From positions 1-28,137 of IMG/VR virus record IMGVR_UViG_3300009151_000298: a stretch of 28,137 bases of DNA. One strand, 5' to 3'. This document shows, piece by piece, positions 6,546 to 28,137 of the stretch. Position 1 is the first letter of the stretch. Each line of letters starts with the position of its first letter. The position numbers and the translations under genes are program-made. The notes beneath the pieces are model-generated. The model was not told where the DNA came from and ran no database searches. It worked only from the letters and a program-made list of their open reading frames with translations. The stretch is from a virus.

Positions 6546-7544
6546 ATGCCACGACGTGGATCACTTAGTTCAATAAATCTTATTGCCGGGGCAAGCATAC
6601 TAGGCAATGTTGGCGGCACTGCCATTGCTGCAAACACTACATTAGTAGCTGACATTGCCAGTTACAACAGTCTTGCGGTGGTATCACAATTTGCCAGTGT
6701 TATATCGGGTGCCGCCGGTAATATAGCCAATGTGAGTGGTGCAACACTGACTAGTTTAAAGAATTTAGCAGGGGGCATATTTCCTGCTGTGACCAATGCT
6801 ATTCCTAGTGCATACGTCGCATCACTTGGTAATACACCAACCGGAGGATTTAGTGGGGTGGTATCGGCTCAAGCTAATAATATCATGGGTAACGGCGACC
6901 TAGGTATATTCAGCCAGGTGCTTACTGCATGTAATGGATTTGTTTCTATTACTAATCAAGCCATACGCACTGCTAAGAATGCTGAAAATGTTGGATACAC
7001 CAGCCAAGACAATACAATCACTGGTGGCTTCAGTGACGTAAGTCTTGCATTTAGTGCGCTTGGATATGATATGTCTAAATTGGGTATATTGATAGATCTT
7101 GGCAATTTAGATAATCTTGGTAATCCTGCCGCATTGCTTCGACAGATTGATAGCGTATCGTTTGGGCTACCAGGATTGTCTGCTGCGTTAATTAATTCCG
7201 GAGTACCAGAAGAGATTGCACAAGATTTAAGTTCTCCGGAATTTTCCGGCGCATTAGAAAAACTGGCATACCAAGCTATGTTAATGGTAACGGGTAATGA
7301 CCTTACCCAAATATTAAAATTACTAAAAGTTACCACACCAAATATAAACACTCTGGCAGATCTACTTAATCCATTTAAGCTATTTCCAAACAGTTTCCAG
7401 ACATTGACTGCTCCAACAAGTAATGGACTAAGAGGAGTTTATATAGATTCCTCGGGAGCAGTCAACAGTAAATTAGCAACTGAATTACCAAGTTCTGTAT
7501 TAGCGCCATTGCAGGGCAATCCCTTGCAGAGTATTCCGCGGTAA
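6546..7544 (+). CDS. Probable virion (baseplate/tail) structural protein
   Basis: A 332-residue protein three bases after the PAAR gene. It is rich in Ala, Gly, Ser, Asn and Leu, with few charges and no Cys motifs beyond one isolated Cys, a composition common in tail and baseplate components. Hydrophobic runs near residues 10-65 (AGASILGNVGGTAIAAN...) look more like packed helices than a signal peptide, because a basic N-terminus (MPRRGS) is followed by polar residues. I recognise no enzymatic motif. The structural call rests on the PAAR neighbour, composition and tight operon packing. A conserved phage protein of other function is possible. Confidence 0.55.
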   Translation: MPRRGSLSSINLIAGASILGNVGGTAIAANTTLVADIASYNSLAVVSQFASVISGAAGNIANVSGATLTSLKNLAGGIFPAVTNAIPSAYVASLGNTPTGGFSGVVSAQANNIMGNGDLGIFSQVLTACNGFVSITNQAIRTAKNAENVGYTSQDNTITGGFSDVSLAFSALGYDMSKLGILIDLGNLDNLGNPAALLRQIDSVSFGLPGLSAALINSGVPEEIAQDLSSPEFSGALEKLAYQAMLMVTGNDLTQILKLLKVTTPNINTLADLLNPFKLFPNSFQTLTAPTSNGLRGVYIDSSGAVNSKLATELPSSVLAPLQGNPLQSIPR

Positions 7545-17424: not shown

Positions 17425-18339
17425 GTGATATCATCATTTAATGAATGGGATCCGTTGCGAGAAGTGGTAGTAGGATCAGCAACTGGAGCAAATTGGCCAA
17501 GCGCAGATCCAGTATTTGCAATGGAATATACTCGTACAAAATGGAAAGAAACTCCAGTACCATCTGGCGCTGTGCCACAATGGATAATTGATGAAGCCAA
17601 TGAGGATTTGGATATATTAGCAGCAACATTACATAATCTGGACATTGTTGTTCATAGACCTAAAGAAATAGATTTTGTTAAAACAGCTGGTATGTATAAT
17701 TATTGTCCACGAGATCGAATACTAGTTGCCGGATCAACTATGATAGATTGTGCAATGATGTATCCGTGTCGAGATCAAGAGATACATGCTTTAGCACATG
17801 TGGTTAATCGTGCAAAAACTGTAATAACCATGCAACGTGAGCATGGACTTGTATTTGATGCAGCCAACGTATGTAGACTGGGTGATACATGGATATATCT
17901 TGAAAGCGACAGTGGTAATCGCGCAGCATATAATTGGTTACAACAGCATTTCCCCACAGTTGATATTGAGCGATGTAATTTCTATGCAGGAGTACACATA
18001 GATTCAACTATCGTTCCATTACGTGAAGGATTGGTAATGTTAAATGCATCAAGGGTAACTGAAAACAATTGCCCACGAGCATTTGATAATTGGGATAAGA
18101 TTTGGATTGATAATGTACATGAACAGAATTTTCATCAATATCCCTATGCAAGTAAATGGATAGCAATGAATGTTTTAGTAGTTGATCCACATACAGTTAT
18201 TGTTGATAAACATCAGAAAAACATAATAGATAAACTAACGCAGTACAATTTTACTGTTATACCATTGGAACTACGACATAGTAGAACGCTAGGTGGTGGA
18301 TTTCATTGTACCACGTTAGATATAGTACGAGATATATAG
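17425..18339 (+). CDS. Amidinotransferase (glycine/inosamine amidinotransferase family)
   Basis: A 304-residue enzyme expected to move an amidino group, usually from arginine, onto an amine. The family's conserved blocks are present in order: NEWDPLREVVVG (6-17), YNYCPRDRILVAG, FDAANV with Asp145, HIDSTIVPLREGLVMLN with His191, and the terminal GGGFHCTT with Cys295. His-Cys spacing is 104 residues, the same as His303-Cys407 in human glycine amidinotransferase, and Asp145 fits its Asp254. No signal peptide. The GTG start follows the previous stop directly, with no clear ribosome binding site, so translation is probably coupled to the oxygenase. Substrate could be glycine, a modified amino acid or a nucleic acid base; the sequence does not say. 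Confidence 0.88.
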   Translation: MISSFNEWDPLREVVVGSATGANWPSADPVFAMEYTRTKWKETPVPSGAVPQWIIDEANEDLDILAATLHNLDIVVHRPKEIDFVKTAGMYNYCPRDRILVAGSTMIDCAMMYPCRDQEIHALAHVVNRAKTVITMQREHGLVFDAANVCRLGDTWIYLESDSGNRAAYNWLQQHFPTVDIERCNFYAGVHIDSTIVPLREGLVMLNASRVTENNCPRAFDNWDKIWIDNVHEQNFHQYPYASKWIAMNVLVVDPHTVIVDKHQKNIIDKLTQYNFTVIPLELRHSRTLGGGFHCTTLDIVRDI

Positions 18340-18342
18340 TAA

Positions 18343-18630
18343 TTATACCAACTCTATAATAGATGATTCTGGAATATCGATACCATGTTTTGTACACTGA
18401 TCGTTACGATATGCTATCCAACCTTCAGCGGCTGGTAAATCGATCCAGGTCCTAAGAAGAAATCGTTTATTGGTTGAAACTTCTAATGGTGGTTCATAGA
18501 TGAGTATTCCGTCTGTTTTTCCTTGGATTTTAAGTTCCTCGGCCGTTAGAAAACATTCGTTAGTAAATGTTTCATATTTTCCGCCATCGGCATATTTTTC
18601 ATAATTTGTTAATATTCTTGTTTGATACAT
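18343..18630 (-). CDS. Small conserved phage protein of unknown function
   Basis: A 95-residue minus-strand protein converging on the amidinotransferase gene with three bases between stops. AGGAGA lies upstream of its ATG, and a CATAAATA late element lies further upstream on the same strand. The sequence is mixed alpha/beta (NKRFLLRTWIDLPAAEGWIAYRNDQC) with a compact hydrophobic core and no membrane span. It resembles small dimeric ferredoxin-like folds in strand order, but I cannot name a family. Confidence 0.55.
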   Translation of the reverse strand: MYQTRILTNYEKYADGGKYETFTNECFLTAEELKIQGKTDGILIYEPPLEVSTNKRFLLRTWIDLPAAEGWIAYRNDQCTKHGIDIPESSIIELV

Positions 18631-18665
18631 GATTTCTCCTAATAATAGTTTGGATTAATATCCGC

Positions 18666-18694
18666 TTGACCGTATACTATATTTATGTTATACT
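18666..18694 (+). promoter_or_regulatory. Sigma-70-type promoter of the uvsE gene
   Basis: TTGACC (18666-18671) and TATACT (18689-18694) are spaced 17 bases. The predicted start at about 18701 leaves a leader of about 24 bases before the uvsE ATG. The CATAAATA element of the divergent gene lies inside the spacer of this promoter on the opposite strand. Confidence 0.6.
18680..18687 (-). promoter_or_regulatory. Late-type promoter on the minus strand (CATAAATA)
   Basis: Read on the minus strand, 18687 to 18680 is CATAAATA, one base from the T4 late consensus and identical to the element before the phasin-like gene. It would start a transcript about 45 bases upstream of the 95-residue minus-strand gene. 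Confidence 0.4.
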
Positions 18695-18724
18695 TATACA
18701 ACATTATTACTCAAGGGTGTTGAT

Positions 18725-19765
18725 ATGCGTGGTAAAATTGGTTTTGCTTGCAAATGGTTAAATGATCCATCCGAATGTGGCGGCATGAAGGTGAATGCCG
18801 TGGATCGTGACTTAAATGGCCGTAGTACCACCATGCGCTGGCTACGTGAACATCCAGCTGAAGCCGAACAACGTCAGTGGGACATAATGAATCACAATGC
18901 TGCGGCGGCTGTGAAAATGATCGAACGTGTGGGTAGTTTAGCACCCGAGTTACGTATGGTCAGACTAGGTAGTGAAATGCTACAAGGCTATACACAACAA
19001 GATTGGCAAGCCTGGTGGCAACGTAGAGAAATCCAGGATCATTTGGAACGTATATTTGCTCCTGTAGGCGAAACTGCCCGACGATTGGGTGTACGTATAA
19101 GTTTTCATCCTGGACAATTTTGTGTGCTGGCCAGTGTAAATGAAAACATTGTTGTTCGTAGTATAGAAGAGTTTGAATATCATGCAGATATGGCCCGGTG
19201 GATGGGGTTCGGCAAGAGTTTCCAGGATTTTAAAATCAATGTACACATCTCAGGTAGGCAAGGGCCCGAAGGAATCCGACGTGCTTGGAACAAGCTCAGT
19301 GTTGAAGCCCGCAACTGTATCACCATCGAAAATGAAGAAATAACACATGGACTTGCTGATTGTCTTAGTCTTGCCGATATTGTACCTTGTGTTCTTGACA
19401 TACATCATCACTTCATTAGAGAAGGGGAATACATACAACCTGACGATGACCGTGTGCAACAAGTTATTGATAGTTGGCGTGGGCTTCGTCCTACTATGCA
19501 CTATTCCGTCAGTCGTGAAGATCTACTCACAGATCATCCTGCCGATATTCTTCCAGATCTGGGCGCTTTGCTCTTAGCTGGACATAAAAAACAAAAGTTA
19601 AGGGCGCATTCGGACTTTTATTGGAATACAGCAGTAAACACATGGGCCGGTGGTTTTTGTGATCAGTTCGATATCATGTGCGAAAGTAAATCGAAGAACT
19701 TAGGTGCCCAACAGTTGTATAACTTCTGGAAAAACAACAAAGACGCGGTGAGTATTGTTTCTTAA
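18725..19765 (+). CDS. uvsE: UV damage endonuclease UvsE/UvdE
   Basis: A 346-residue TIM-barrel nuclease that nicks DNA 5' of UV photoproducts and other lesions. The family blocks are clear: IGFACKWLNDP start, MVRLGSEML, the metal-site strand RISFHPGQFCVLAS, NVHISG, ENEE (glutamate ligand), LDIHHH, and HYSVSRE...DHPADILP...AHSDFYWN. Length is typical of bacterial UvsE. It is preceded by a strong early-type promoter, so repair capacity would be made soon after infection. T4 uses the unrelated DenV for this job. The following gene has its own early promoter directly after the stop. Confidence 0.9.
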   Translation: MRGKIGFACKWLNDPSECGGMKVNAVDRDLNGRSTTMRWLREHPAEAEQRQWDIMNHNAAAAVKMIERVGSLAPELRMVRLGSEMLQGYTQQDWQAWWQRREIQDHLERIFAPVGETARRLGVRISFHPGQFCVLASVNENIVVRSIEEFEYHADMARWMGFGKSFQDFKINVHISGRQGPEGIRRAWNKLSVEARNCITIENEEITHGLADCLSLADIVPCVLDIHHHFIREGEYIQPDDDRVQQVIDSWRGLRPTMHYSVSREDLLTDHPADILPDLGALLLAGHKKQKLRAHSDFYWNTAVNTWAGGFCDQFDIMCESKSKNLGAQQLYNFWKNNKDAVSIVS

Positions 19766-19768
19766 TGG

Positions 19769-19797
19769 TTGACATCGAACGATTTATTTGCTATACT
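19769..19797 (+). promoter_or_regulatory. Strong sigma-70 promoter driving the early small-gene run
   Basis: Consensus TTGACA (19769-19774), 17-base spacer and TATACT (19792-19797). The predicted start is about 19804, only one or two bases before ATG 19806, so the first message would be nearly leaderless. Confidence 0.65.
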
Positions 19798-19805
19798 ACT
19801 AACAT

Positions 19806-20222
19806 ATGAAAAAATCTACAAAACTTTGGATTGATCCACCGTCCGGTTGGAGATACGGTTTCCCTAAAACGTGGGACCAGACTGGTGATATGAATGAATG
19901 GTTACTTAGTGAAGGGTATCCACAACAAGAGATTGATGCGTGTGGAAACTTTTTTTATGTAAGACAATGGCTAGATGAAGCAGATACAAACACAAAGGAG
20001 ATTAAAATGGCAAAGACTAAAACAGTAGTATCCAAGGTAAGTGACAAGTTAGCTAAGGTAAATGAAAATTTCAATGTTAACATGTATGACAATGGATTCA
20101 TGTTGGAAGTCAGTGGTAAGGATGCTGACAACGAATACAAAACAGCAAAGATCATGGTGTCAACAAGTAATGAATTGCTTGTATTGATTGCCGAAGTTGC
20201 TGAAATGGAACGTGATAGTTAA
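19806..20222 (+). CDS. Conserved phage protein, apparently an in-frame fusion with an internal start
   Basis: A 138-residue protein that appears to join two units. Residues 1-67 (LWIDPPSGWRYGFPKTWD...MNEWLLSEGYPQQEIDACGNFFYVRQW) match a small stand-alone protein frequent in large phages. Residues 68-138 begin with MAKTKTVVSKVSDKLAKV and form a separate small domain with beta-strands (VNMYDNGFMLEVSG). The junction contains AAAGGAG (19994-20000), six bases before an in-frame ATG at 20007, so a 71-residue product can also be made. No stop codon separates the two. Function of neither half is known. The upstream promoter leaves almost no leader. Confidence 0.6.
   Translation: MKKSTKLWIDPPSGWRYGFPKTWDQTGDMNEWLLSEGYPQQEIDACGNFFYVRQWLDEADTNTKEIKMAKTKTVVSKVSDKLAKVNENFNVNMYDNGFMLEVSGKDADNEYKTAKIMVSTSNELLVLIAEVAEMERDS
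20007..20222 (+). CDS. Probable internal translation product of the fused gene
   Basis: Starts at an ATG inside the preceding frame with an ideal AAAGGAG at a 6-base spacing, giving a 71-residue basic/acidic mixed protein (ending EVAEMERDS). Such a strong site within a coding region is unlikely by chance and suggests this was, or still is, an independent gene. Confidence 0.5.
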   Translation: MAKTKTVVSKVSDKLAKVNENFNVNMYDNGFMLEVSGKDADNEYKTAKIMVSTSNELLVLIAEVAEMERDS

Positions 20223-20224
20223 GC

Positions 20225-20461
20225 ATGATACTAATTCACGAACGCGTCGAAGAACTTGCTAAACAAGCAGATGAATATCTGTTGGAAAAAGTTCAGGAGG
20301 AAAATCGCAGTTCCTGGGCGCAAGTTTTTGCCGAGTTGATTGTGAAAGAATGTTTGGAGGCTTGTAGCAGAGCAAATGAGATTAGACATTTGGTGCCACC
20401 TACACAACAGCAAGTGGTATTGAGTTGTATGGATGAGATTGAAAGAACATTTCGGAGTTGA
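20225..20461 (+). CDS. Small phage protein of the FAELIVKEC family (frame-altered C-terminus)
   Basis: A 78-residue protein two bases after the previous stop. It shares with the genes at 21074 and 21313 an opening like ERIxELxxQA, the core FAELIVKECLE and a C-terminal helix. The relatives end KEHFGVEE or KEHFRVEE; this one ends EIERTFRS because its DNA carries one extra base before the conserved ACATTTCGG, shifting the frame into an earlier TGA. Function unknown. The last bases contain the conserved junction element that starts the next gene. Confidence 0.6.
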   Translation: MILIHERVEELAKQADEYLLEKVQEENRSSWAQVFAELIVKECLEACSRANEIRHLVPPTQQQVVLSCMDEIERTFRS

Positions 20462-20467
20462 AGAATG
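20454..20467 (+). repeat. Conserved gene-junction element, copy 1
   Basis: CGGAGTTGAAGAATGA spans 20453-20468. It supplies GGAG, an A-rich spacer and the ATG of the next gene while ending the upstream gene. Identical copies are at 20559-20574 and 21833-21848; variants are at 21301-21316 (CGGTGTTGAAGAATGA) and 21519-21534 (TAGAGTTGAAGAATGA). Confidence 0.7.
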
Positions 20468-20578
20468 ATTGAAATTGTTATTATTGTCGCAGTCGTTGTT
20501 ATTGTTGGTGTAAATGTTCTAACAACAGTATCAACAAGATTCCGCCGCTGGTTATATACGGAGTTGAAGAATGAGTAA
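20465..20578 (+). CDS. 37-residue single-pass membrane protein
   Basis: ATG 20465 with GGAG upstream (within the junction element) opens a 37-residue frame ending at TAA 20576-20578. Residues 3-17 are almost all Val and Ile (EIVIIVAVVVIVGVNVL), a single transmembrane helix, followed by a basic patch (RFRRW) and an acidic end. The basic patch predicts the C-terminus inside the cytoplasm. It overlaps the next gene by eight bases. Too small for most gene finders but well supported by its initiation site and by abutting genes. Confidence 0.6.
   Translation: MIEIVIIVAVVVIVGVNVLTTVSTRFRRWLYTELKNE
20559..20574 (+). repeat. Conserved gene-junction element, copy 2
   Basis: CGGAGTTGAAGAATGA, identical to copies at 20453-20468 and 21833-21848. 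Here it is read as T-E-L-K-N-E at the end of the upstream frame, a different frame from the other copies, and gives the start of the 168-residue gene. Confidence 0.7.
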
Positions 20579-21077
20579 TTTAACATCACATGCAATGAAC
20601 GAATTCCGTGCAGCAGGATGGTTGGACCAGAATGGCAAATATACTGATGACATGCAGGAATTGATATGTAATCATGTGCTTGCCCTATTAACTGTTTTTT
20701 CAGATGAGGGGCATTCTGGTACCTCTGCACCCTACACTATTGATCTGTTCTCTAAGTTGGCAAAGTATGATCCTATCGTTCCGCTAACTGGTGAGGACTG
20801 GGAATGGAGTGAAGTGTCTGATGGTGACAAGGGCAAGATGTATCAGAACAAACGGTGCGGTGCTGTATTTAAATCAGCAGATCGGCATGATGGGCAACCA
20901 TATTATATAGATGGAAAAGTGTATTGGGAATGGTATAAGAATGGTGATGGTGAAGTGAACAAAATTTATTTCACCTGTGGAGATTCTCAAGTGCCGATTA
21001 TGTTTCCCTACACACCAAAGTCCGAATATGTGTTTAGAGCGACAGATCAATTTTCCACTGAGATTATTCAAGAATGA
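20571..21077 (+). CDS. Conserved phage protein of unknown function
   Basis: A 168-residue protein initiated from a conserved junction element. The N-terminal part is helical (MSNLTSHAMNEFRAAGWLD) and the middle has a block (FSDEGHSGTSAPYTIDLFSKLAKYDPIVPLTGEDWEW) that I recognise as conserved among proteins from varied tailed phages, none characterised to my knowledge. The C-terminal part is beta-rich with two Cys (NKRCGAVF, YFTCGD) and ends IMFPYTPKSEYV. No signal or membrane segment. Early-type placement suggests a role in takeover, but this is conjecture. Confidence 0.65.
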   Translation: MSNLTSHAMNEFRAAGWLDQNGKYTDDMQELICNHVLALLTVFSDEGHSGTSAPYTIDLFSKLAKYDPIVPLTGEDWEWSEVSDGDKGKMYQNKRCGAVFKSADRHDGQPYYIDGKVYWEWYKNGDGEVNKIYFTCGDSQVPIMFPYTPKSEYVFRATDQFSTEIIQE

Positions 21078-21316
21078 ACGAACGGATTAGAAAACTATGT
21101 TCTCAGGCAATATCAGATGTTGATGGTATCCAAAACCCTGACACGCAAAATATGTATATTCCAGACTGCTTTGCCGAAAAGTTCGCCGAGTTGATTGTAG
21201 CAGACTGTTTAGATGTAGTAGCAATGCGGATTTATCTTGGCCCTGTAGAAATGTGCAGGCAAGAATGTAAAGCCCTGGCGTCAGAAATTAAAGAACATTT
21301 CGGTGTTGAAGAATGA
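21074..21316 (+). CDS. Small phage protein of the FAELIVKEC family
   Basis: An 80-residue protein overlapping the previous gene by four bases. It begins NERIRKLCSQA, has the family core FAEKFAELIVADCLD and ends EIKEHFGVEE. The fold should be two or three helices. It is a paralogue of the proteins at 20225 and 21313, so the family has been duplicated within this run. Function unknown. The last 16 bases are a variant of the junction element. Confidence 0.65.
   Translation: MNERIRKLCSQAISDVDGIQNPDTQNMYIPDCFAEKFAELIVADCLDVVAMRIYLGPVEMCRQECKALASEIKEHFGVEE
21301..21316 (+). repeat. Conserved gene-junction element, variant copy
   Basis: CGGTGTTGAAGAATGA, one base different from the main form. Read as F-G-V-E-E-stop together with the preceding TT, it overlaps the ATG of the next gene. 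Confidence 0.65.
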
Positions 21317-21534
21317 ACGAACGAATTAAAGAGTTAATGGACCAAGCCAGAGACGAAACAACCAAAGGAATATCATTTGATACTGGGCTTTCTTCTTATT
21401 CAAAAAGATTTGCCGATTTGATTGTGAAAGAATGTATCGATCAGTTATGTGTTAGTGACCCCACAGAAGATTTTGATAAGGGTGTAATCTGGGCAGCTCA
21501 ACAGATTAAAGAACATTTTAGAGTTGAAGAATGA
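21313..21534 (+). CDS. Small phage protein of the FAELIVKEC family
   Basis: A 73-residue paralogue of its neighbour: it starts NERIKELMDQA, has KRFADLIVKECIDQL in the middle and ends QQIKEHFRVEE. The start overlaps the upstream stop by four bases (ATGA). Divergence in the middle but conservation at both ends suggests an old duplication with selection on the terminal helix or on the initiation signal within it. Function unknown. Confidence 0.65.
   Translation: MNERIKELMDQARDETTKGISFDTGLSSYSKRFADLIVKECIDQLCVSDPTEDFDKGVIWAAQQIKEHFRVEE
21519..21534 (+). repeat. Conserved gene-junction element, variant copy
   Basis: TAGAGTTGAAGAATGA, two bases different from the main form at its 5' end. Read as R-V-E-E-stop; it overlaps the ATG of the gene at 21531. 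Confidence 0.6.
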
Positions 21535-21848
21535 CAACAATTAATCTTGAAGAAATTCCGCAAGGGGTATTAGATGACATCGCTGATTGTTTAGAAGTAG
21601 TTACCTTTGAAAATTATATTAAACCGGTAACTGCTGAATGTGAATTCAGACGATCAAACTATCGTAGGTTCGTTGCCAACAATGTTGAAGGCTGGGTGTT
21701 AGATAGTAAAACTTTTGAATCTAAATTAATTACAGGAACTAAAATGGAATGTTATCTTGTTCGGGGTGTTTTTACTGCCGATACCGCAGATATATATTCT
21801 GTACTATCTGCTGGTATCGGCGTATCAAATTTCGGAGTTGAAGAATGA
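21531..21848 (+). CDS. Protein of unknown function with a junction-encoded tail
   Basis: A 105-residue protein unrelated in its body to the FAELIVKEC family (MTTINLEEIPQGVLDDIADCL, then beta-rich FENYIKPVTAE and GWVLDSKTFESKLITG). Yet it ends NFGVEE, because its last bases are the same junction element. So the shared tail tracks the DNA element and not protein ancestry. No membrane segment. It overlaps its neighbours by four bases on both sides. Function unknown. Confidence 0.55.
   Translation: MTTINLEEIPQGVLDDIADCLEVVTFENYIKPVTAECEFRRSNYRRFVANNVEGWVLDSKTFESKLITGTKMECYLVRGVFTADTADIYSVLSAGIGVSNFGVEE
21833..21848 (+). repeat. Conserved gene-junction element, copy 3
   Basis: CGGAGTTGAAGAATGA, identical to the copies at 20453 and 20559. 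Identity with the first copy extends to ATTT upstream and one T downstream. It starts the DNA glycosylase gene. Confidence 0.7.
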
Positions 21849-22276
21849 TCGGATTTAACCCTCTACGTGATGATCTAATGGTACAACAACAAATCCACAA
21901 TAGCTGGGAACACATGGTGGGTGTTATCATGCTTAACCAAACTGGTCGTAAACCTGTCAAGACGACCTTGCCCGAATTCCTTTATTGGTTCCCAACACCA
22001 CTTGCATTGATTGCAGCAAATGAAGATTTTGTTAAAACTATACTGTCACCACTGGGTATGAGGAATGTGCGTTATACCCGGCTAATTAAAATGAGTAAGG
22101 ACTACTTGACTTGGGACGGAAATGATGCTACAATGCTATATGGTATTGGCAAATATGGCAGCGATAGCTATGAGATATTTTTTAAGAATAATTATACTGT
22201 TGCCCCAAAAGATAAAGAACTTGTGCGTTACTTGAATGATCTACAACCAGCTACTTTAGACAAGGAAATAACATGA
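21845..22276 (+). CDS. MBD4-like HhH-GPD DNA glycosylase
   Basis: A 143-residue single-domain glycosylase expected to remove a mismatched or damaged pyrimidine (T or U opposite G in the eukaryotic relative). It aligns by eye with the MBD4 catalytic domain: MLNQT (MBD4 LNRT), FLYWFPTPLALI, ILSPLGMRNVR, then LYGIGKYGSDSYEIFF (MBD4 HGIGKYGNDSYRIFC), the helix-hairpin-helix loop, and PKDKEL with Asp123 at the place of the catalytic Asp in PEDHKL. No iron-sulfur cysteines follow, unlike EndoIII/MutY. It starts from a conserved junction element and overlaps the next gene by four bases. With UvsE and LigA it could form a small excision-repair set. Confidence 0.8.
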   Translation: MIGFNPLRDDLMVQQQIHNSWEHMVGVIMLNQTGRKPVKTTLPEFLYWFPTPLALIAANEDFVKTILSPLGMRNVRYTRLIKMSKDYLTWDGNDATMLYGIGKYGSDSYEIFFKNNYTVAPKDKELVRYLNDLQPATLDKEIT

Positions 22277-22797
22277 TTACGCTTAGAGATTTTATGGAAG
22301 TAACTGATTACAAAATTACCGAAGGCTCGGACTTTCTCTGGAGTTGTTATGGTCCAAATGTCCATAGGTTGGATTCATGGAATCAAAATCAGTTGGAGCA
22401 TACTGTAAATGTCGTGTTTGATACCACCACTCAAGAAGTATATGAAATGGGTGTGTGTGATTATAGCAACAATCGTGCTTATCGCTGGATGAACCCAGCG
22501 TATATTGAAGTATATCAGGATGAAGCAAAATCAAAAGGTGTTAATCCAGACATGGCCTGGGATGAGGTCGATTTTGTCGATCTTGATGTTGCTGAAGATC
22601 TACTAGAAAAAACTCGGGCTATCATCGCCGGTGAAGAATATGATACCAGAGTATGCATCCAAATTACCTTTTCTGATGATGAACTATTGACCTATATGAA
22701 GTTAGCCCATGAACTTGATATCACGTTTAATGAGTTTGTGATCAAGGCATTGCAAGAAATGATGGATAAACATGAAGATTGGGATGAAGAAAGCTAA
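22273..22797 (+). CDS. Conserved phage protein with ribbon-helix-helix-like C-terminus
   Basis: A 174-residue protein overlapping the glycosylase gene by four bases. Residues 1-115 (LRDFMEVTDYKITEGSDFLWSCYGPNVHRLDSW...VYEMGVCDYSNNRAYRWMNPAYI) form a beta-rich domain found in other phage proteins. Residues 125-174 (VCIQITFSDDELLTYMKLAHELDITFNEFVIKAL) have the strand-helix-helix pattern of ribbon-helix-helix DNA-binding proteins, so DNA binding or regulation is possible. Very acidic end. No characterised homologue comes to mind. Confidence 0.6.
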   Translation: MITLRDFMEVTDYKITEGSDFLWSCYGPNVHRLDSWNQNQLEHTVNVVFDTTTQEVYEMGVCDYSNNRAYRWMNPAYIEVYQDEAKSKGVNPDMAWDEVDFVDLDVAEDLLEKTRAIIAGEEYDTRVCIQITFSDDELLTYMKLAHELDITFNEFVIKALQEMMDKHEDWDEES

Positions 22798-22799
22798 GT

Positions 22800-23096
22800 A
22801 TGAATCCAGTGTTTAATGCTTTAGTGGATATTTGGCGATGGATACAATGCGATTATTCAAGCAATCGCACGAGATTTATTGTTGAGGTTATGGGTTGGGC
22901 AATCAGTGTTGGTTGCAGCGTTACAATGGCTATGACTGTACCAAACCCGCCCCTTGTGCAAATTTATCCAGTTTGGATTGCAGGCTGTGCTATGTATCTA
23001 TGGGCAAGCTGGACACGCAGAAGCTTTGGTATGATGGCCAACTATTTCTTATTGATGAGCATCGATACCATTGCTTTGCTTAGGATGATTTTTTAG
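22800..23096 (+). CDS. Conserved phage inner-membrane protein
   Basis: A 98-residue protein with three hydrophobic spans at about 28-48 (FIVEVMGWAISVGCSVTMAM), 52-70 and 76-97. The motif VPNPPL between the first two spans and the block WTRRSFGMMANY are recurrent in membrane proteins of large phages. The size and spans would allow a holin, but no lysis gene is adjacent, so I do not call it one. The gene starts two bases after the upstream stop and its 3' end overlaps the convergent minus-strand gene by 17 bases. Confidence 0.6.
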   Translation: MNPVFNALVDIWRWIQCDYSSNRTRFIVEVMGWAISVGCSVTMAMTVPNPPLVQIYPVWIAGCAMYLWASWTRRSFGMMANYFLLMSIDTIALLRMIF

Positions 23097-23316
23097 CTCT
23101 TGGCTTGGCGGCGCGTTTTTTAGCTGGCTTTGAGTCAGCAGCAGTGACCGCGTTTTCGATACGCCATGCAGTGGCATTAGGTGGAGATTTCTTAGCAATT
23201 TTTGCTACCGCACCTGCGCCTTCAACAGCAATCACAGCAGATGGTGTTTCTACCTTGTAAGGTGCTGGTGTAATGTCTGGTTTACCAAATAGAAAATTCT
23301 TAATAGCTTTGAACAT
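23080..23316 (-). CDS. Small basic protein with Lys/Ala-rich tail
   Basis: A 78-residue minus-strand protein. It opens with an amphipathic segment MFKAIKNFLFGKPD, has a helix of Ala and Val, then a tail of Lys, Arg, Ala and Pro (SKPAKKRAAKPRAKKSS) like histone H1-type or nucleoid-binding tails. AGGAGA lies upstream of its ATG, and ACTAAATA on the same strand (about 23337-23345) could be a late promoter with a short leader. Nucleic-acid binding is likely from charge alone; function otherwise unknown. Confidence 0.6.
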   Translation of the reverse strand: MFKAIKNFLFGKPDITPAPYKVETPSAVIAVEGAGAVAKIAKKSPPNATAWRIENAVTAADSKPAKKRAAKPRAKKSS

Positions 23317-23382
23317 GGGATTCTCCTGTGTAGATTGATATTTAGTTTTAGCAAACGGTCCAATGCTATTTCTTCAAATTAC

Positions 23383-23434
23383 TTGCAAATTGTTAGCGAT
23401 GATAATATAATAATTGTGCGTTGCAGCATAAATA
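23383..23434 (+). promoter_or_regulatory. Tandem sigma-70 and late promoters of the phasin-like gene
   Basis: TTGCAA (23383-23388) and TATAAT (23406-23411) are 17 bases apart. CATAAATA (23427-23434) follows as a late-type element. The remaining leader ends with TCGCTTA (23481-23487) and AAAGGAGAA (23492-23500), the same two blocks as in the hsp20 leader (13114-13120 and 13124-13132). This accounts for the 189-base gap before the gene. Confidence 0.55.
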
Positions 23435-23505
23435 AACTTAGCAACCGGGATGCTGCATAGGGCAGGTCCTACAAGTTAGCTCGCTTAATTCAAAGGAGAA
23501 ATACC

Positions 23506-23721
23506 ATGTTCACAATCGATACCGTAGTTGACCAAAATGTCCGTAATACCAAGTTGATCTTGGCCTATGTACCAAACGAAACCCTTCGCAAGAGTTTTGA
23601 AACCATGCTTGATGCCCAAGCTGAGTTTACCAAAACCATGTTTAGCACCGGAGCCGAATTGGTAAAAGTAGCCGCAGACCAAATTGGTAAAGTTAATCCA
23701 CTAACTTCGGTTAAAAAATAA
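23506..23721 (+). CDS. Phasin-like small protein
   Basis: A 71-residue, wholly helical protein (VPNETLRKSFETMLDAQAEFTKTMFSTGAELVKVAADQIGKV). The amphipathic pattern and the Q-x-E-F-T-K...ELVKVAADQ stretch resemble the core helix of phasins, proteins coating polyhydroxyalkanoate granules in many proteobacteria, although it is shorter than typical phasins (over 100 residues). It has tandem promoters, a very strong ribosome binding site and its own terminator, so it is a monocistronic, probably highly expressed gene. Alternatives are a small nucleoid or membrane-associated protein. The phasin match is by pattern, not by a diagnostic residue. Confidence 0.55.
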   Translation: MFTIDTVVDQNVRNTKLILAYVPNETLRKSFETMLDAQAEFTKTMFSTGAELVKVAADQIGKVNPLTSVKK

Positions 23722-23740
23722 CAATTCGGTAAAACTGAGT

Positions 23741-23769
23741 TTGACCACAAAGTCCAGAACCTGTACAAT
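23741..23769 (+). promoter_or_regulatory. Possible sigma-70 promoter overlapping the terminator
   Basis: TTGACC (23741-23746) and TACAAT (23764-23769) are 17 bases apart. The -10 box falls in the terminator loop region. The predicted start near 23776 would place the new transcript beyond most of the hairpin, giving about 45 bases before the lipoprotein ATG. Confidence 0.4.
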
Positions 23770-23790
23770 GTACAGACTGGACTTTTATTT
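23751..23790 (+). terminator. Intrinsic terminator after the phasin-like gene
   Basis: AGTCCAG (23751-23757) pairs with CTGGACT (23777-23783), and inside it CTGTAC (23761-23766) pairs with GTACAG (23770-23775) around AAT. With a small internal bulge this is a 13-bp stem, followed by TTTATTTT, a good intrinsic terminator. Confidence 0.8.
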
Positions 23791-23821
23791 TGACTGTAGT
23801 TATTGCCTTAGGAGGCATATT

Positions 23822-24517
23822 ATGAAAAAGTTATCAATGGTGGTGGCAATAAGCGGTATTGTTGGACTTTCGGGATGTGGTTCTTTAAAACTTGGCAACG
23901 ACAATCCAGGGATTACTCCACCTGCAGTTATTCCTGTTAAAGAGGAAGTGGTAGAACTCAGCACTGAGTTTAAGCGTGAGGGTGTACGAGTATTTTATAC
24001 ACTAACAGGTGCAGTGGATCATGTGGAAGCCAAAGGCTTTGCTGATGTATGGCAACAACGTTATGAGCATGTTGCTGAACTTGAAGCCAAAGAAAAGATG
24101 GTTAAGTTTCTACGCGGTGAATCGGTTAGTAGCAGCCGTAAAACACAAGTCATCGCCAAAGCTATTGAACGAGCACAAGATAACACAATAAATCGCTTTA
24201 AGAAAATGGATGGAAGCTCGGCTCTAAGCACCACCGCAGAGGAACTTGAAGCGGAACCTAAAAATAAATCTGAAGAAAACAATAATAACAAAGAAGAAAA
24301 TGCTCGAGATAATACAGCTCTGCGTAAAGCCAGCATCAATAATGCACAGACTGTAACCAGCAGCATCACAGTTACCTCAGCTGGTAGGCTAACCGCAGTA
24401 CGAAAGAGCAAAGGCGAAATTGTAAATGACGGCAAGATATACATAGGAACCTATGTGTGGTCACCCAAGGATCAGGAGGCTGCACGTAGTATTACTCGCA
24501 TGATGGATGCACCGTAA
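23822..24517 (+). CDS. Outer-membrane-type lipoprotein, possibly LPP20/FlgP-like
   Basis: I choose ATG 23822 (231 residues), preceded by AGGAGG ten bases upstream; an earlier ATG lies inside the terminator. MKKLSMVVAISGIVGLSGC is a lipoprotein signal with Cys19, and Gly-Ser follow, favouring the outer membrane. The next part has the Ala/Glu helix pattern (EHVAELEAKEKMVKFLRGE) seen in LPP20-like lipoproteins. Residues about 140-175 are Asn/Glu-rich and flexible. The C-terminus (VNDGKIYIGTYVWSPKDQEAARSI) looks like the closing strand and helix of that fold. It lies directly before a secreted protein, a pairing reminiscent of the flagellar flgP/flgT genes of Vibrio; this similarity is tentative. 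Confidence 0.6.
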   Translation: MKKLSMVVAISGIVGLSGCGSLKLGNDNPGITPPAVIPVKEEVVELSTEFKREGVRVFYTLTGAVDHVEAKGFADVWQQRYEHVAELEAKEKMVKFLRGESVSSSRKTQVIAKAIERAQDNTINRFKKMDGSSALSTTAEELEAEPKNKSEENNNNKEENARDNTALRKASINNAQTVTSSITVTSAGRLTAVRKSKGEIVNDGKIYIGTYVWSPKDQEAARSITRMMDAP

Positions 24518-24521
24518 TATC

Positions 24522-25640
24522 ATGCGTAAAATACTATTATTAGTAATTTGTTTGTGTACCCTCCAGCCTGCCACAGCAGCATTGCTTAGTCCAATAAGTG
24601 TGGCTATAACTGGAGGGCAGTGGATGTTTCGAGAACAAATTAAATTCTATCAAATACGTGTCGAATCTCAAGGCAATACATTTGATGAAGCCAAACAAGA
24701 AGGACTGCGTCTTGCAGTAGAATTAGCAGTAGGAGCATTAGTATTATCTGAAGGCCAAGTAGTAAACGGTGAATCAAAACGCCGTGAAATCATTACCTAT
24801 GCTTCGGGATATGTAGATAAATTTGAGATCGTTGAACGAGATACAACTAGAGCAAGCACCAAATTGATTATGGATGTTTGGGTTGGCGAAAGCCGTATAG
24901 CCAATAGATTACTCAATAACTCAGCAACAGCCGGACGTATTGATGGAGAAAGATTGGCGGTACGGGTTGAGTCTATAATACATGAGAGGCAAAGCGGTGA
25001 TCGTGTTTTAGCTGCTGTATTACAAGATTTTCCACGCCGAGCATTTGATATCAAGCTATTAACTACACAGGTGTCGTTGTCTAATCTTAGACAGGTAGCT
25101 ATAAAAATACCTTTTGAAATCGGTTGGAATTATAATTATCTAATTAGTTTATATGAGGCTCTTGAAAAGGTCGGAGTATCCGGTACATGCAATATGTCCG
25201 ACATCATGTTCAATATGTCTAAATGCAATAGAGAGCAGAATGATCGTAGTTTTCTAAATATTTCTTTAAGACCTCCACAAAATCTCATAATGGGATGGAC
25301 CGGCAGGCTGGGATTTGATGATGATGAAAAGCTGAAATCGCTACATCGAACTATGGTACGTGGTGCGCCGGCAATACAACTGGTGGTTAAAAATACACAA
25401 GGCAATCCAGTATATAATATTTGTGGATATATGCAGGAATTAGATCATAATGTAATTGGTGTCCAAATTACAAATAATAGATTTATACAGTTTCAAGGTC
25501 GAGAAGCTAGTATTGCCGGAGCATTGGTATTATACAGCAGCATCGAGCTAGATATACGTGGCAATCCGGCGATATTAGAACAACTAGACACTATAGAATT
25601 ACGGGTAGTGCCCAAAGCTCAATGCCCCAATAAGGGATAA
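24522..25640 (+). CDS. Periplasmic protein with FlgT-N-like domain
   Basis: I choose ATG 24522 (372 residues), four bases after the lipoprotein stop; ATG 24507 would lie inside that gene. Residues 1-19 form a signal peptide (RKILLLVICLCTLQPATA). Residues 32-110 carry a block (FYQIRVESQGNTFDEAKQEG, AVELAVGALVL, REIITYASGYVDKFEIVE) that resembles the N-terminal domain of FlgT, with the typical EAxxxALxxAV helix and Y-x-x-G-Y-V strand. The remaining 250 residues are beta-rich with four Cys that could form disulfides. It probably acts in the periplasm with the lipoprotein upstream. The function in a phage is unknown. Confidence 0.6.
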   Translation: MRKILLLVICLCTLQPATAALLSPISVAITGGQWMFREQIKFYQIRVESQGNTFDEAKQEGLRLAVELAVGALVLSEGQVVNGESKRREIITYASGYVDKFEIVERDTTRASTKLIMDVWVGESRIANRLLNNSATAGRIDGERLAVRVESIIHERQSGDRVLAAVLQDFPRRAFDIKLLTTQVSLSNLRQVAIKIPFEIGWNYNYLISLYEALEKVGVSGTCNMSDIMFNMSKCNREQNDRSFLNISLRPPQNLIMGWTGRLGFDDDEKLKSLHRTMVRGAPAIQLVVKNTQGNPVYNICGYMQELDHNVIGVQITNNRFIQFQGREASIAGALVLYSSIELDIRGNPAILEQLDTIELRVVPKAQCPNKG

Positions 25641-25718
25641 TATAAGCAACCGCGGGTAGTTACAGACATAAGTATAGAATACAAAGACGTCGAATTGACC
25701 ATACTTCCTAAATTCTTA

Positions 25719-26288
25719 ATGACCACCCGAAAAATCAAAGATGAAGCATATTCAGCAGCTGACAAGATTGATTTTGGGTTGCTACATCAACACATACATT
25801 TTCTTAGTGGTGATATAGCAGAGGCAAATATTAGTGCTGCAATAAAATGGATTGTGTACGAAAATGCTGTAAATCCCGAAGCTATGCTTACCTTATACGT
25901 AAATTCCGAAGGTGGAGTATTGACAGATGCTTTTGCGTTAATTGATGTTATGTATAACTCAAAATGCAAAATCCAGACAATTGGATTGGGATCTATATGC
26001 TCAGCAGCTTTTCTAATATTTGTATCCGGTGCCAAAGGCAAGAGATTTATTTCTAAAAATACCAGTATCATGTGTCACCAATATACAGATGATGCAGCCG
26101 GTAAGTATCATGATCTGGCTGCCAGGATGAGAGAAACAAAATTTGCCAATGATCGAATGGTTGAGGTATTGACACGCAGTACCAATCTTGATGCTGCCAC
26201 GGTCTTGAAAAAACTATTGCCACCAAGCGATGTCTGGCTCACCCCCGAAGAACTGGTCAAATACGCCGGCGCCGATCAGATAATATAA
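25719..26288 (+). CDS. clpP: ClpP-like serine protease
   Basis: A self-compartmentalising protease subunit that would degrade proteins fed by an AAA+ unfoldase. Taking ATG 25719 (189 residues), the catalytic triad is Ser95 (GSICSAAFLIF), His120 (SIMCHQY) and Asp171 (PSDVWLTPEEL), at almost the E. coli mature positions (97, 122, 171). NSEGG (62-66) is the oxyanion-strand motif NSPGG with Pro replaced by Glu, and SGAKGKRFISKNTSIM is typical. No ATPase gene is in this window, so it may use a host ClpA/X. An upstream TTG (25695) is in frame without a Shine-Dalgarno. Phage ClpP folds also serve as prohead proteases, but no head genes are near. Confidence 0.85.
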   Translation: MTTRKIKDEAYSAADKIDFGLLHQHIHFLSGDIAEANISAAIKWIVYENAVNPEAMLTLYVNSEGGVLTDAFALIDVMYNSKCKIQTIGLGSICSAAFLIFVSGAKGKRFISKNTSIMCHQYTDDAAGKYHDLAARMRETKFANDRMVEVLTRSTNLDAATVLKKLLPPSDVWLTPEELVKYAGADQII

Positions 26289-26301
26289 CTTGCAGTTGAC
26301 C

Positions 26302-27621
26302 ATGCCATCCCAGTCTATATTCTGTAATGCTCCATGGTATGAACTGCAGATTTATTGGGACGGTAGTCTGGGTTTTTGCTGTCAAGAAGATCACAAAGTA
26401 TATCCAGACCATTTAAGTACTCATTACAACATACAAAACATAAGCATACAGGAGTGGATGGCCAGCGAACCAATGCAGGCAGCTCGTATGATGATGTTTG
26501 ATCATACACGAAACACCGTTTGTCGTCGTTGTTATATAGAAGAAGATCATAGTACTACCAGTAGACGTCATAGATCAAATCAAAAAAGTGTTATATTTAC
26601 ACGTACAAACTTTATAGAAAGTTATGAACAAAGTCCGGGTTACGATAAGTTTGAACTAAGTCGAAATTCACAAGGAGCATATGGTGGATTGCCTTTGGAT
26701 TTGCATATTGATTTAGGAAACTATTGCAATCTAACTTGCAAGATGTGCAATCCAAAAGCCAGTAGTAGTATTGCCTCACAATACGTTAAATGGGGTATTG
26801 CAGATGCTAAACAATACATAGGATCAGACTGGACTAGGAATAATACTGTTTGGACTAGAGTGCTGACCGAGATAGCTAATATTCCTAATCTTAGCAATGT
26901 ACACTTCATGGGAGGAGAAACACTTATAACTAAACGCTTTGAAGATTTTATTGATTTTATGATCGCATATAATAGATTTGATTTACATTTTAGTTTTGTT
27001 ACTAATGGAACACAATTCAATGAGTCATTGTTACTCAAATTAAAAAAGTTTAAGCGTGTAGGAATAGAAGTCAGTATCGAAACGCTAACAGCACATAATG
27101 CATATCAACGTCAAGGAACAAATACTGCACAAGTATTAACCAATATTGATCGCTATCTAACACATTGCAATAACACAAATATCACACTGACAATACGTCC
27201 GGCAATAAGCGCATTGACCATCGGACACTATGATACCTTATTACGATTTTGCCTTGAACGTAATCTTGTAGTTAAGGGATTGATAGTATTTGATCCAGAA
27301 TTTCTAGATGTGCGTGTTTTGCCTATATTAGTTCGCAATGCATATAAACAAAAATATCTCAATCTCATAACAGAATACAAGTTGGATCAGGTCGATTGTA
27401 CACGTGACTACAACGAAAGCGATCCAAATCAAATAAGTAGCCAGGTTAAAAATCAAATTCTACAATGCATAAATCTATTAGATGCAACTGCTTTACCCAA
27501 CAGTGACGAATTGTTGACTGCAATGGTGTCATGGTGTCGTAAGTGGGATACGGTACATGCATACAATGCATTAGAATTATATCCAGAATTACGTGATGAA
27601 TTTATTACCCGTGGATACTAA
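26302..27621 (+). CDS. Radical SAM protein with N-terminal twitch-type cluster
   Basis: I choose ATG 26302 (439 residues) over the TTG twelve bases before, because the conserved FCNAPW follows at once. An N-terminal region (FCNAPWYELQIYWDGSLGFCCQ, with Cys8, Cys26, Cys27, then Cys74 and Cys77 in VCRRC) looks like an auxiliary twitch cluster placed before the radical SAM barrel. The SAM cluster is Cys142, Cys146, Cys149 (CNLTCKMC), followed by MGGETL (GGE motif), SFVTNGT and SIE. I recognise this arrangement from other tailed phages; substrate unknown. The 3' end overlaps the next gene. It is distinct from the radical SAM gene at 10638, whose extra Cys lie at the C-terminus. Confidence 0.85.
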   Translation: MPSQSIFCNAPWYELQIYWDGSLGFCCQEDHKVYPDHLSTHYNIQNISIQEWMASEPMQAARMMMFDHTRNTVCRRCYIEEDHSTTSRRHRSNQKSVIFTRTNFIESYEQSPGYDKFELSRNSQGAYGGLPLDLHIDLGNYCNLTCKMCNPKASSSIASQYVKWGIADAKQYIGSDWTRNNTVWTRVLTEIANIPNLSNVHFMGGETLITKRFEDFIDFMIAYNRFDLHFSFVTNGTQFNESLLLKLKKFKRVGIEVSIETLTAHNAYQRQGTNTAQVLTNIDRYLTHCNNTNITLTIRPAISALTIGHYDTLLRFCLERNLVVKGLIVFDPEFLDVRVLPILVRNAYKQKYLNLITEYKLDQVDCTRDYNESDPNQISSQVKNQILQCINLLDATALPNSDELLTAMVSWCRKWDTVHAYNALELYPELRDEFITRGY

Positions 27622-28084
27622 ATGCTATCATCTACAAGCCGAGATATGGCTTACACCAATTTGGCATTCCGAACCACCAGTTATTGAACTAAAGTTTAAT
27701 GATTGGTTGCTGTATATCGGCCCACTTACCCAAGCTAGAAGTTTTACTATTGATCAATACTTGTTAGCTGGCAATCAAAATATCAGTGTTACATTTAAGA
27801 ATAAAAAAAATAGTGATACTATTCAGGGTGGCGATAAAGCTATTCAAATTGATAAGATTGTGTTCAACAATATCAACAGTGACCGATTTGTTTGGGCCGG
27901 CGAGTATATGCCAATATATCCCAACCCCTGGGCCAGTGAACAAATAGCCCAAGGTATAGTGCTTGATCCAGTATTGCGCTATCACAATTATCTTAGTTGG
28001 AATGGCACGTGGAGTTTAGATTTCACTATGCCAATTTTTACTTGGATACACACCATTGAAGATCTTGGTTGGGTATATCGATAA
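27593..28084 (+). CDS. Conserved phage protein, probably beta-sandwich, of unknown function
   Basis: A 163-residue protein overlapping the radical SAM gene by 29 bases. The start could also be ATG 27596 or GTG 27611; none has a good ribosome binding site, so coupling is likely. It is beta-rich with conserved aromatics (IWLTPIWHSEPPVIELKFNDWLLYIGPL, then FTIDQYLLAGNQNISVTFKNKKNSDT, and WAGEYMPIYPNPWASEQ, ending TWIHTIEDLGWVY). I recall this pattern in phage proteins next to tail or radical SAM genes. It may be a carbohydrate-binding-like module, which is inference from fold alone. Confidence 0.6.
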   Translation: MMNLLPVDTKCYHLQAEIWLTPIWHSEPPVIELKFNDWLLYIGPLTQARSFTIDQYLLAGNQNISVTFKNKKNSDTIQGGDKAIQIDKIVFNNINSDRFVWAGEYMPIYPNPWASEQIAQGIVLDPVLRYHNYLSWNGTWSLDFTMPIFTWIHTIEDLGWVYR

Positions 28085-28087
28085 TAG

Positions 28088-28137
28088 TTACTTCTTAAAC
28101 ACATCTCGGGCTTCTGTCCATCTACCAGCCCTTGTCC
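28088..28137 (-). CDS. 3' end of a minus-strand gene (partial)
   Basis: On the minus strand the last 50 bases read in one open frame as ...RAGRWTEARDVFKK followed by TAA (28090-28088). The sense is like the end of a real protein, and it would converge on the gene before it with three bases between. The start lies beyond the window, so the product cannot be named. Confidence 0.45.
   Translation of the reverse strand, partial: TRAGRWTEARDVFKK

Follow-up and report, generated by a model that had tools for sequence, protein, structure and literature searches.

The window analysed here is a stretch of 28,137 bases, the IMG/VR virus record IMGVR_UViG_3300009151_000298 and possibly a fragment, and this work concerns a 16-nt DNA element, CGGAGTTGAAGAATGA, that recurs at gene boundaries of an array of small genes in it. 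All genes and element copies of the array lie on the plus strand. The array begins with a gene of 78 amino acids (aa; 20225-20461), followed by the gene of a small hydrophobic protein (37 aa; 20465-20578) with the element at both ends. Next comes a Tad3-family gene (20571-21077; Pfam PF25185, E 2.3e-34), by its Pfam name an inhibitor of type I Thoeris defence, which sits within the element-bounded array as cargo, between the hydrophobic-protein gene and a gene of 80 aa (21074-21316). The array continues with genes of 73 aa (21313-21534) and 105 aa (21531-21848; MTTINLEE...SNFGVEE, below the MTTINLEE gene), and 3' of the last element copy lies an HhH-GPD-like gene (21845-22276; Pfam PF00730, E 7.6e-06). 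The 78-, 80- and 73-aa proteins are members of one family, described below; the 105-aa protein is not.

The 16-mer is exact at 20453-20468, 20559-20574 and 21833-21848 (copies 1, 2 and 5), has one mismatch at 21301-21316 (copy 3) and two at 21519-21534 (copy 4), as the initial annotation of this DNA had placed them. Shuffled versions of the window gave on average 0.21 matches with up to three mismatches and two at most, and 0 of 100 shuffles reached five. All five copies close or overlap the end of the upstream open reading frame (ORF) and hold the ATG of the next one. The upstream ORFs are read in different frames, again as had been proposed. Copy 1 ends gene 20225 one frame off (...TFRS-stop) and starts gene 20465; copy 2 forms the third-frame 3' end of the hydrophobic-protein gene (...TELKNE-stop, the stop at 20576-20578 lying beyond the 16-mer) and starts the Tad3 gene; copy 3 encodes the ...FGVEE-stop tail of gene 21074 and starts gene 21313; copy 4 encodes the ...RVEE-stop tail of gene 21313 and starts gene 21531; and copy 5 places an FGVEE-stop tail on the MTTINLEE gene and starts gene 21845. 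It had also been claimed that each copy supplies GGAG to the next gene, which holds for only three of the five, copy 3 reading GGTG and copy 4 AGAG. At the boundary at 21074 inside the array, where the Tad3 gene meets a family gene, only AAGAATGA is in common with the element.

Promoter, terminator and RNA-fold readings of the element were dropped. When sites were scored by the sigma-70 consensus only, 12 promoter-like sites were found in 19700-23100 and 11.5 in shuffles, so that there was no excess; a weak site (9/12) overlaps copy 1 and none lies across the other window copies. No stem-loop was detected at any of the five copies (fold z-scores -0.23 to 1.13), and the only terminator-like site, at 22553, is away from any copy. 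Upstream of the array, a near-consensus sigma-70-like promoter (19769-19797; TTGACA, 17 nt, TATACT; 11/12, a consensus match only) lies directly before gene 19806, which precedes the array. A UvdE-type UV endonuclease gene (18725-19765; Pfam E 5.4e-29) also lies 5' of the array and has ~66-72% DNA identity to several element-bearing contigs.

A part of the picture unseen in the initial annotation is where the element probably comes from. It is the 3' end of the genes of a protein family with the pattern MNERIKEL...KFAELIVREC...IKEHFGVEE-stop, laid out as a head (MNERIKELAEQA), a variable part, the core KFAELIVREC, a second variable part and the tail IKEHFGVEE. Among 120 IMG/VR loci with the exact 16-mer, plus the window, 142 of the 158 ORFs that end in the 16-mer in the FGVEE frame were recognised as family members by a profile built without the tail, and 338 family ORFs were found in those 120 loci and the window. 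The window members are genes 20225, 21074 and 21313, and the TFRS ending of gene 20225 is the family tail read one frame off, with copy 1 retaining the upstream extension AAAGAACAT of family tails. Such shifted FRS endings recur in L069/L178, L189, L036, L127 and L141 (L numbers denote the sampled loci). The bodies of the array genes, initially described as partly unrelated, are so for some of them; the three genes just named belong to one family, and the RS ending is simply its tail off-frame. An AlphaFold2 model of a family protein, the 80-aa product of gene 21074, consists of three helices (pLDDT 85.4, pTM 0.70), with the third helix ending at the F of the tail. We take this paralogous family of small phage proteins, with its predicted three-helix fold, as the probable source of the element, which would have begun as the 3' end of its genes.

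The family is widespread in uncultured phages. A megablast of 18000-28137, two tblastn probes with family proteins and a distant search with one junction gave no credible match in cultured phages, the last listing four records at E 0.4. Searches of Pfam and PHROGs with 37 tail-trimmed members hit one PHROG and two Pfam families, one member each, which gives no family assignment; 43 full-length members hit seven PHROGs up to E 0.05 (best 0.0025), each matched by at most two members. PDB sequence and fold searches with the family found nothing credible, and BFVD returned weak matches (best E 1.2e-03) of which the top eight are uncultured Caudovirales proteins. A scan of genome contigs found six contigs, all titled as metagenome-assembled genomes or bins. 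As for the affiliation of the window itself, a probe with its protein at 6546-7541 had no match, and the best match of a ribonucleotide reductase probe was Xanthomonas phage X1 (62%), too general for phage placement.

The second half of gene 20225, from core to tail (20326-20468), is 88-97% identical in four other contigs (L069/L178, L189, L271 and L001), and the match stops at the core; the first half of the L069 gene differs from that of the window gene. Family genes resemble two-half mosaics joined at the core block.

To count the element beyond the window, we used the exact 16-mer and a degenerate form. The exact 16-mer was found in at least 120 stretches in IMG/VR and the reversed 16-mer in 2; the 120 loci and the window hold 179 exact copies. 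For the degenerate element (TTYGGAGTTRAA, at most one mismatch and an ATG within 6 nt), the window and 303 loci (304 sequences) were merged by shared 400-mers into 253 contig groups of 2.36 Mb, the longest sequence being kept per group and other stretches of the same contig lost; L121-L123 (the window itself) and L135-L136 (control pattern) were dropped before merging. With the strand assigned by majority per contig, 606 copies lay on the gene strand, 1 on the other strand and 4 in reversed sequence. Control sequences, shuffled or reversed, thus give almost no copies.

Upstream of the 606 copies there is a family gene in frame in 462 cases and another gene in the FGVEE frame in 68; in 60 of these 68 the body lacks a FAELIV-like hexamer, although some are truncated or diverged family members. 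Other frames account for 40 copies (13 family, 27 other genes), and the rest follow a stop as noncoding DNA (20), have no ORF (13) or lie at a contig edge (3). Downstream, a family gene follows 156 copies, another gene 411, an ORF under 25 aa 20, and 19 are cut off. Of the non-family downstream proteins, 365 have 40 aa or more, and these fell into 265 blastp clusters, in which distant kinship of such short proteins can be missed; the same short sequence therefore borders genes with no homology to each other, is read in several frames and reaches beyond the main family, rather than being confined to one family and one frame. Weak degenerate copies may be of convergent origin. Noncoding copies keep the upstream extension (9/18 match at least 7 of 9 bases, background 3/90), and non-family copies in other frames keep it less (4/27). 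We dropped the view that these phages use the element as their general ribosome-binding site, as GGAG is found at 370 of 1954 other gene starts and only 7 of these 370 read GGAGTTGAA.

Among 100 of the 265 downstream clusters, named cargo included RtcB, isocitrate lyase/PEP mutase-like, M24 peptidase, PsiE, dual-specificity phosphatase and HhH-GPD proteins. At a Pfam E of 0.001 these 100 proteins matched 13 families, one member each, and at least 87 had no match. PADLOC on the same 100 proteins was uninformative (two families, one member each).

One explanation of these counts is that the element is merely the conserved C-terminus of a family expanding by duplication, its non-family copies being frameshifted or decayed family genes. 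That 462 of 606 copies are in-frame family tails fits this explanation, as do noncoding copies that resemble decayed family ends (e.g., L019) and the frame-shifted family tail of window gene 20225. It does not readily account for the 60 in-frame tails on bodies without a FAELIV-like hexamer, of which a few are truncated or diverged family genes. Nor does it account for gene 20465, whose homologues in L209 and L266 have their own, different C-termini and no GGAGTTG at the 3' end, while the window copy ends in the element in the third frame. Together with the nearly frozen synonymous codons described next, these observations disfavour the explanation, and we regard it as quite improbable.

To examine the codons without selecting on the tail, loci were picked by head and core protein patterns, and the best 80 of 212 confirmed loci were kept; 78 of the 80 were used, since L003 and L045 were already in the sample, and collapsing identical family proteins reduced 252 to 247 distinct family ORFs, 178 of which end in ATGA. 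Among the FGVEE tails, 83 of 89 read TTYGGAGTTGAAGAATGA. The 72 HFGVEE tails use CAT in 72, GGA in 72, GTT in 70 and GAA in 70 and 72 cases, for codons whose shares in the gene bodies are 0.70, 0.26, 0.39 and 0.77. A similar bias is seen in the core, with AAG in 90/97, GCC in 85/97 (body 0.28), GAG in 81/97 (body 0.23) and TTG in 89/97, so that core codons are often those rare in the gene body, and in the head, with CGA in 75/83 (body 0.34) and AAC in 75/83. Conservation had been assigned to the DNA or RNA level in the initial annotation; the near-frozen synonymous sites agree with this, yet most copies (462/606) are at the same time in-frame codons of one paralogous family.

What keeps these codons constant? 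One possibility is that selection acts on the element only as an embedded ribosome-binding site, the tail being shared because FGVEE and the site must be kept, and that gene turnover is ordinary illegitimate recombination filtered by selection. GGAG and its spacer are indeed the most constrained stretch (GGA 72/72), and GGAG is found in 153 of 178 tails with the ATGA overlap and in 12 of 40 tails without a close start. In phages, mosaic joints usually lack a boundary sequence according to one report (PMC3029335), and most insertions and deletions in our sample touch no element. However, the constraint reaches past the ribosome-binding site (CAT 72/72) and extends to the core; because the core has no ribosome-binding role, translation signals alone fail to explain the codon pattern. 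The persistence of the element as noncoding DNA together with its upstream extension (9/18 above) also argues against this possibility, as does the excess of homology breaks at elements given below, and we consider it unlikely. Homogenisation by recombination fits the codon pattern better, although recent common descent of blocks with replacement of parts between them would look alike.

If recombination acts at the element, homology between relatives should end there. At an identity of at least 85%, homologous blocks ended at the element in 155 of 719 left ends (random mean 10.6, maximum 17) and in 167 of 699 right ends (random mean 7.4, maximum 15), and at the core in 123 left and 105 right ends (random 5.4 and 5.8); element or core together took 278 of the 719 left and 272 of the 699 right ends. 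When a homologous gene was present on one side, homology was lost across the element in 189/216 and 221/244 pairs, compared with 181/409 and 165/388 at other boundaries and 157/270 and 135/244 at those within 1.5 kb. To remove the effect of the family itself, only non-family genes were then counted: upstream of a conserved non-family gene, homology broke at 72/79 boundaries with the element, at 45/113 without it but within 1.5 kb and at 19/116 farther away (Fisher p 9e-14 for element versus nearby); the boundaries of one contig and the pairs sharing a gene are not independent, so this and the other p-values are rough. It is this difference between the element and nearby boundaries that an embedded ribosome-binding site would leave unexplained. 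In 48 swapped non-family genes, identity was mostly high to ~19 nt above the ATG and at background beyond ~27 nt, and 38 of the 48 partners carry the element too. Blocks reaching from element to element numbered 41 of 937, each counted from both sides (random 0.27), and those with elements at both ends in both partners represent three non-family genes. Homology therefore ends at the element more often than at other boundaries, with a weaker effect for downstream breaks behind non-family genes (p=0.051), and the prediction that breakpoints between relatives map to the element was borne out statistically as well as in individual pairs.

Several individual cases involve the MTTINLEE gene (21531), which is present at 90-98% protein identity in seven other contigs, with five different neighbourhoods on its upstream side and five on its downstream side. 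Contig L124 runs colinear with the window over 20927-26842 (93.6%). In L125/L029, L126, L127, L128 and L129/L274 the gene is an element-to-element unit with other neighbours, the shared block starting at ~21500-21514, stopping at 21848-21851 and so reaching from the edge of one element copy to that of another; on the window the block 21504-21848 has copy 4 as its left and copy 5 as its right edge. In L129/L274 and L130 the gene follows a noncoding element behind an unrelated gene, and the element is noncoding in L235 too. L235 and L274 share the same flanks: L235 has one element and no MTTINLEE gene, directly before an RtcB gene (Pfam), and L274 has the MTTINLEE gene at that place, flanked by two elements whose ATGs lie 314 nt apart. 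Similarly, in L029 a shared family gene and the MTTINLEE gene are separated by two more family genes (499 nt from one element to the other), whereas L127 is without them here and has one element left, with a relative of one of the two genes further downstream. Each of these two differences may represent either a gain or a loss.

Could a dedicated mobility enzyme, such as an array-linked GIY-YIG endonuclease or a site-specific recombinase, act on the element as in integrons or homing? A GIY-YIG-like nuclease gene (L002:11440-11946; Pfam E 0.0033, below the curated cut-off) ends in ...NTFGVK, and similar C-termini were seen by eye before elements with different downstream genes in L209, L221, L275, L297 and L302, only the L002 gene having been scanned. 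Six loci among those listed, of 253 contig groups, show this; the 16-mer is short and not a palindrome, and 0 of 10 scanned window proteins matched a recombinase, the relatives not having been searched for one. We therefore find the action of such an enzyme very improbable.

We consider it likely that the element is a portable junction, in which recombination between near-identical copies exchanges the neighbouring genes while a working start signal is kept, and this reading is largely supported by the observations above. The junction comprises ~20-27 nt, (AAASAACAT)TTYGGAGTTGAAGAATGA, with the 16-mer as its core. Within one stretch, the upstream protein would receive its C-terminus (usually HFGVEE) and the next gene a Shine-Dalgarno-like GGAG, 7 nt of spacer and a start codon that overlaps the stop as ATGA. 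Since most copies hardly differ in DNA sequence, two of them can recombine by homology or annealing so that a gene on either side is inserted, deleted or replaced, and the gain or loss of a cassette between copies would leave a functional start signal for whichever gene follows. Most likely, then, the element serves both as a translation junction and as a short homology arm. The crossover would lie inside the element, and the recombinase is probably phage-encoded. The head ATGAACGAACGAATT and core AAGTTCGCCGAGTTGATTGT DNA blocks seem to be used likewise, shuffling halves of family genes. The initial annotation called the element a portable translation-coupling cassette; the breakpoints and contexts uphold "portable", whereas neither "coupling" nor "early", its word for the small genes, is supported, and we speak of ribosome binding and translational coupling at the element as predicted functions.

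Several observations weigh against the portable junction. The F codon of the HFGVEE tail varies (TTC 56, TTT 16), and so do the core codons for Val and Arg. Behind a non-family gene the excess of downstream breaks is weak, with 18/25 at elements, 76/153 nearby and 24/119 at distant boundaries, and their p-value shifts with the identity threshold (0.030 at 80%, 0.068 at 90%). Identity also fell off only gradually, over ~16 nt, where genes were swapped at boundaries lacking the element (27 cases). At 85% identity, no family gene was seen in full as a clean unit between two elements, and of 68 distinct insert positions, 52 lie clear of any element and only in 2 do both junctions fall at elements. 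An element precedes the Tad3 gene in the window and in L273, where the genes before it differ, and is absent there in L053 and L131-L134, i.e., it is present in 2 of the 7 contigs that this count covers (a Tad3 match in L292 was left out), which indicates that cargo does not depend on the element. Lastly, the loci were sampled for carrying the element or the family.

More tentatively, we can imagine an integrase-free cassette system in which the DNA of head, core and tail is kept alike to form universal recombination sockets and the ribosome-binding site of a gene comes with the cassette before it. Unrelated accessory genes, including Tad3 counter-defence, might then be taken up or exchanged in many uncultured phages and expressed immediately, with the family proteins diversified between the sockets. 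This wider picture is possible, and we hold it with much less confidence than the portable junction itself.

How phage genes swap exactly at their borders is unsettled between targeted boundary sequences and random joints filtered by selection, as far as the available parts of two reports go (PMC3233612, PMC3029335). The element provides a large natural data set for this question, as one boundary sequence occurs hundreds of times and break rates are measurable with nearby boundaries as controls. Reading the genes that adjoin it is also a simple route to accessory, perhaps counter-defence, genes.

Among known systems, integron gene cassettes each carry their own 3' junction, as the cassettes proposed here would, and depend on an integrase gene and attC inverted repeats. 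In our case the 16-mer is no inverted repeat, the coding tail itself is the site, and no integrase was identified, the relatives not having been searched for one. T4-type phages have PeSL cassettes, reportedly described by Arbiol in 2010 and Comeau in 2014, which are said to be intergenic and to consist of a promoter and a stem-loop. The element differs from them as a translation junction with an overlapping stop/start and with no stem-loop or promoter excess. The likeness lies in a repeated sequence between genes tied to modular shuffling; PeSL is a regulatory repeat that mediates such shuffling (PMC4503421).

The Start Associated Sequences (SAS) of Cluster K mycobacteriophages are 13-bp sequences, GGGATAGGAGCCC, placed 3-7 bp 5' of the start codon; they have been proposed to act in translation initiation, about half have inverted-repeat extensions, and the accessible text of that paper contains no breakpoint map (PMC3203893). 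SAS are short asymmetric repeats with AGGAG just 5' of the starts of many different non-structural genes, typically in one orientation, and the element resembles them in part (606 copies on one strand and 1 on the other, by majority per contig, with unrelated downstream genes). Its letters differ from SAS when CGGAGTTGAAGAATGA and the SAS sequence are read directly, and the same text does not describe SAS as the coding tail of a gene family. In mycobacteriophage Island3, genes 67/68 show a gene present or absent beside a gene whose C-terminal 18 codons are shared at the DNA level (~50 bp), and recombination between the shared 3' ends was proposed (PMC3029335). The gain or loss of a gene next to a shared 3' gene end is what we see at the element; as far as the available part of that report describes it, Island3 is one case with no family, no stated ribosome-binding role and no many unrelated cargo genes, whereas the element has hundreds of copies in several frames. 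The conserved boundary-sequence model of phage mosaicism holds, in the part of the source available, that homologous recombination is targeted to short conserved sequences between genes (PMC3233612); here the boundary lies within the codons of the upstream gene, and a second, intragenic anchor is present. No title or abstract on the family or the element was found in the literature searched, for which journal coverage was incomplete. Precedents thus exist for exchange at boundary sequences and at shared 3' ends, and the element differs from those described here in being the coding tail of a gene family, present in many copies and several frames.

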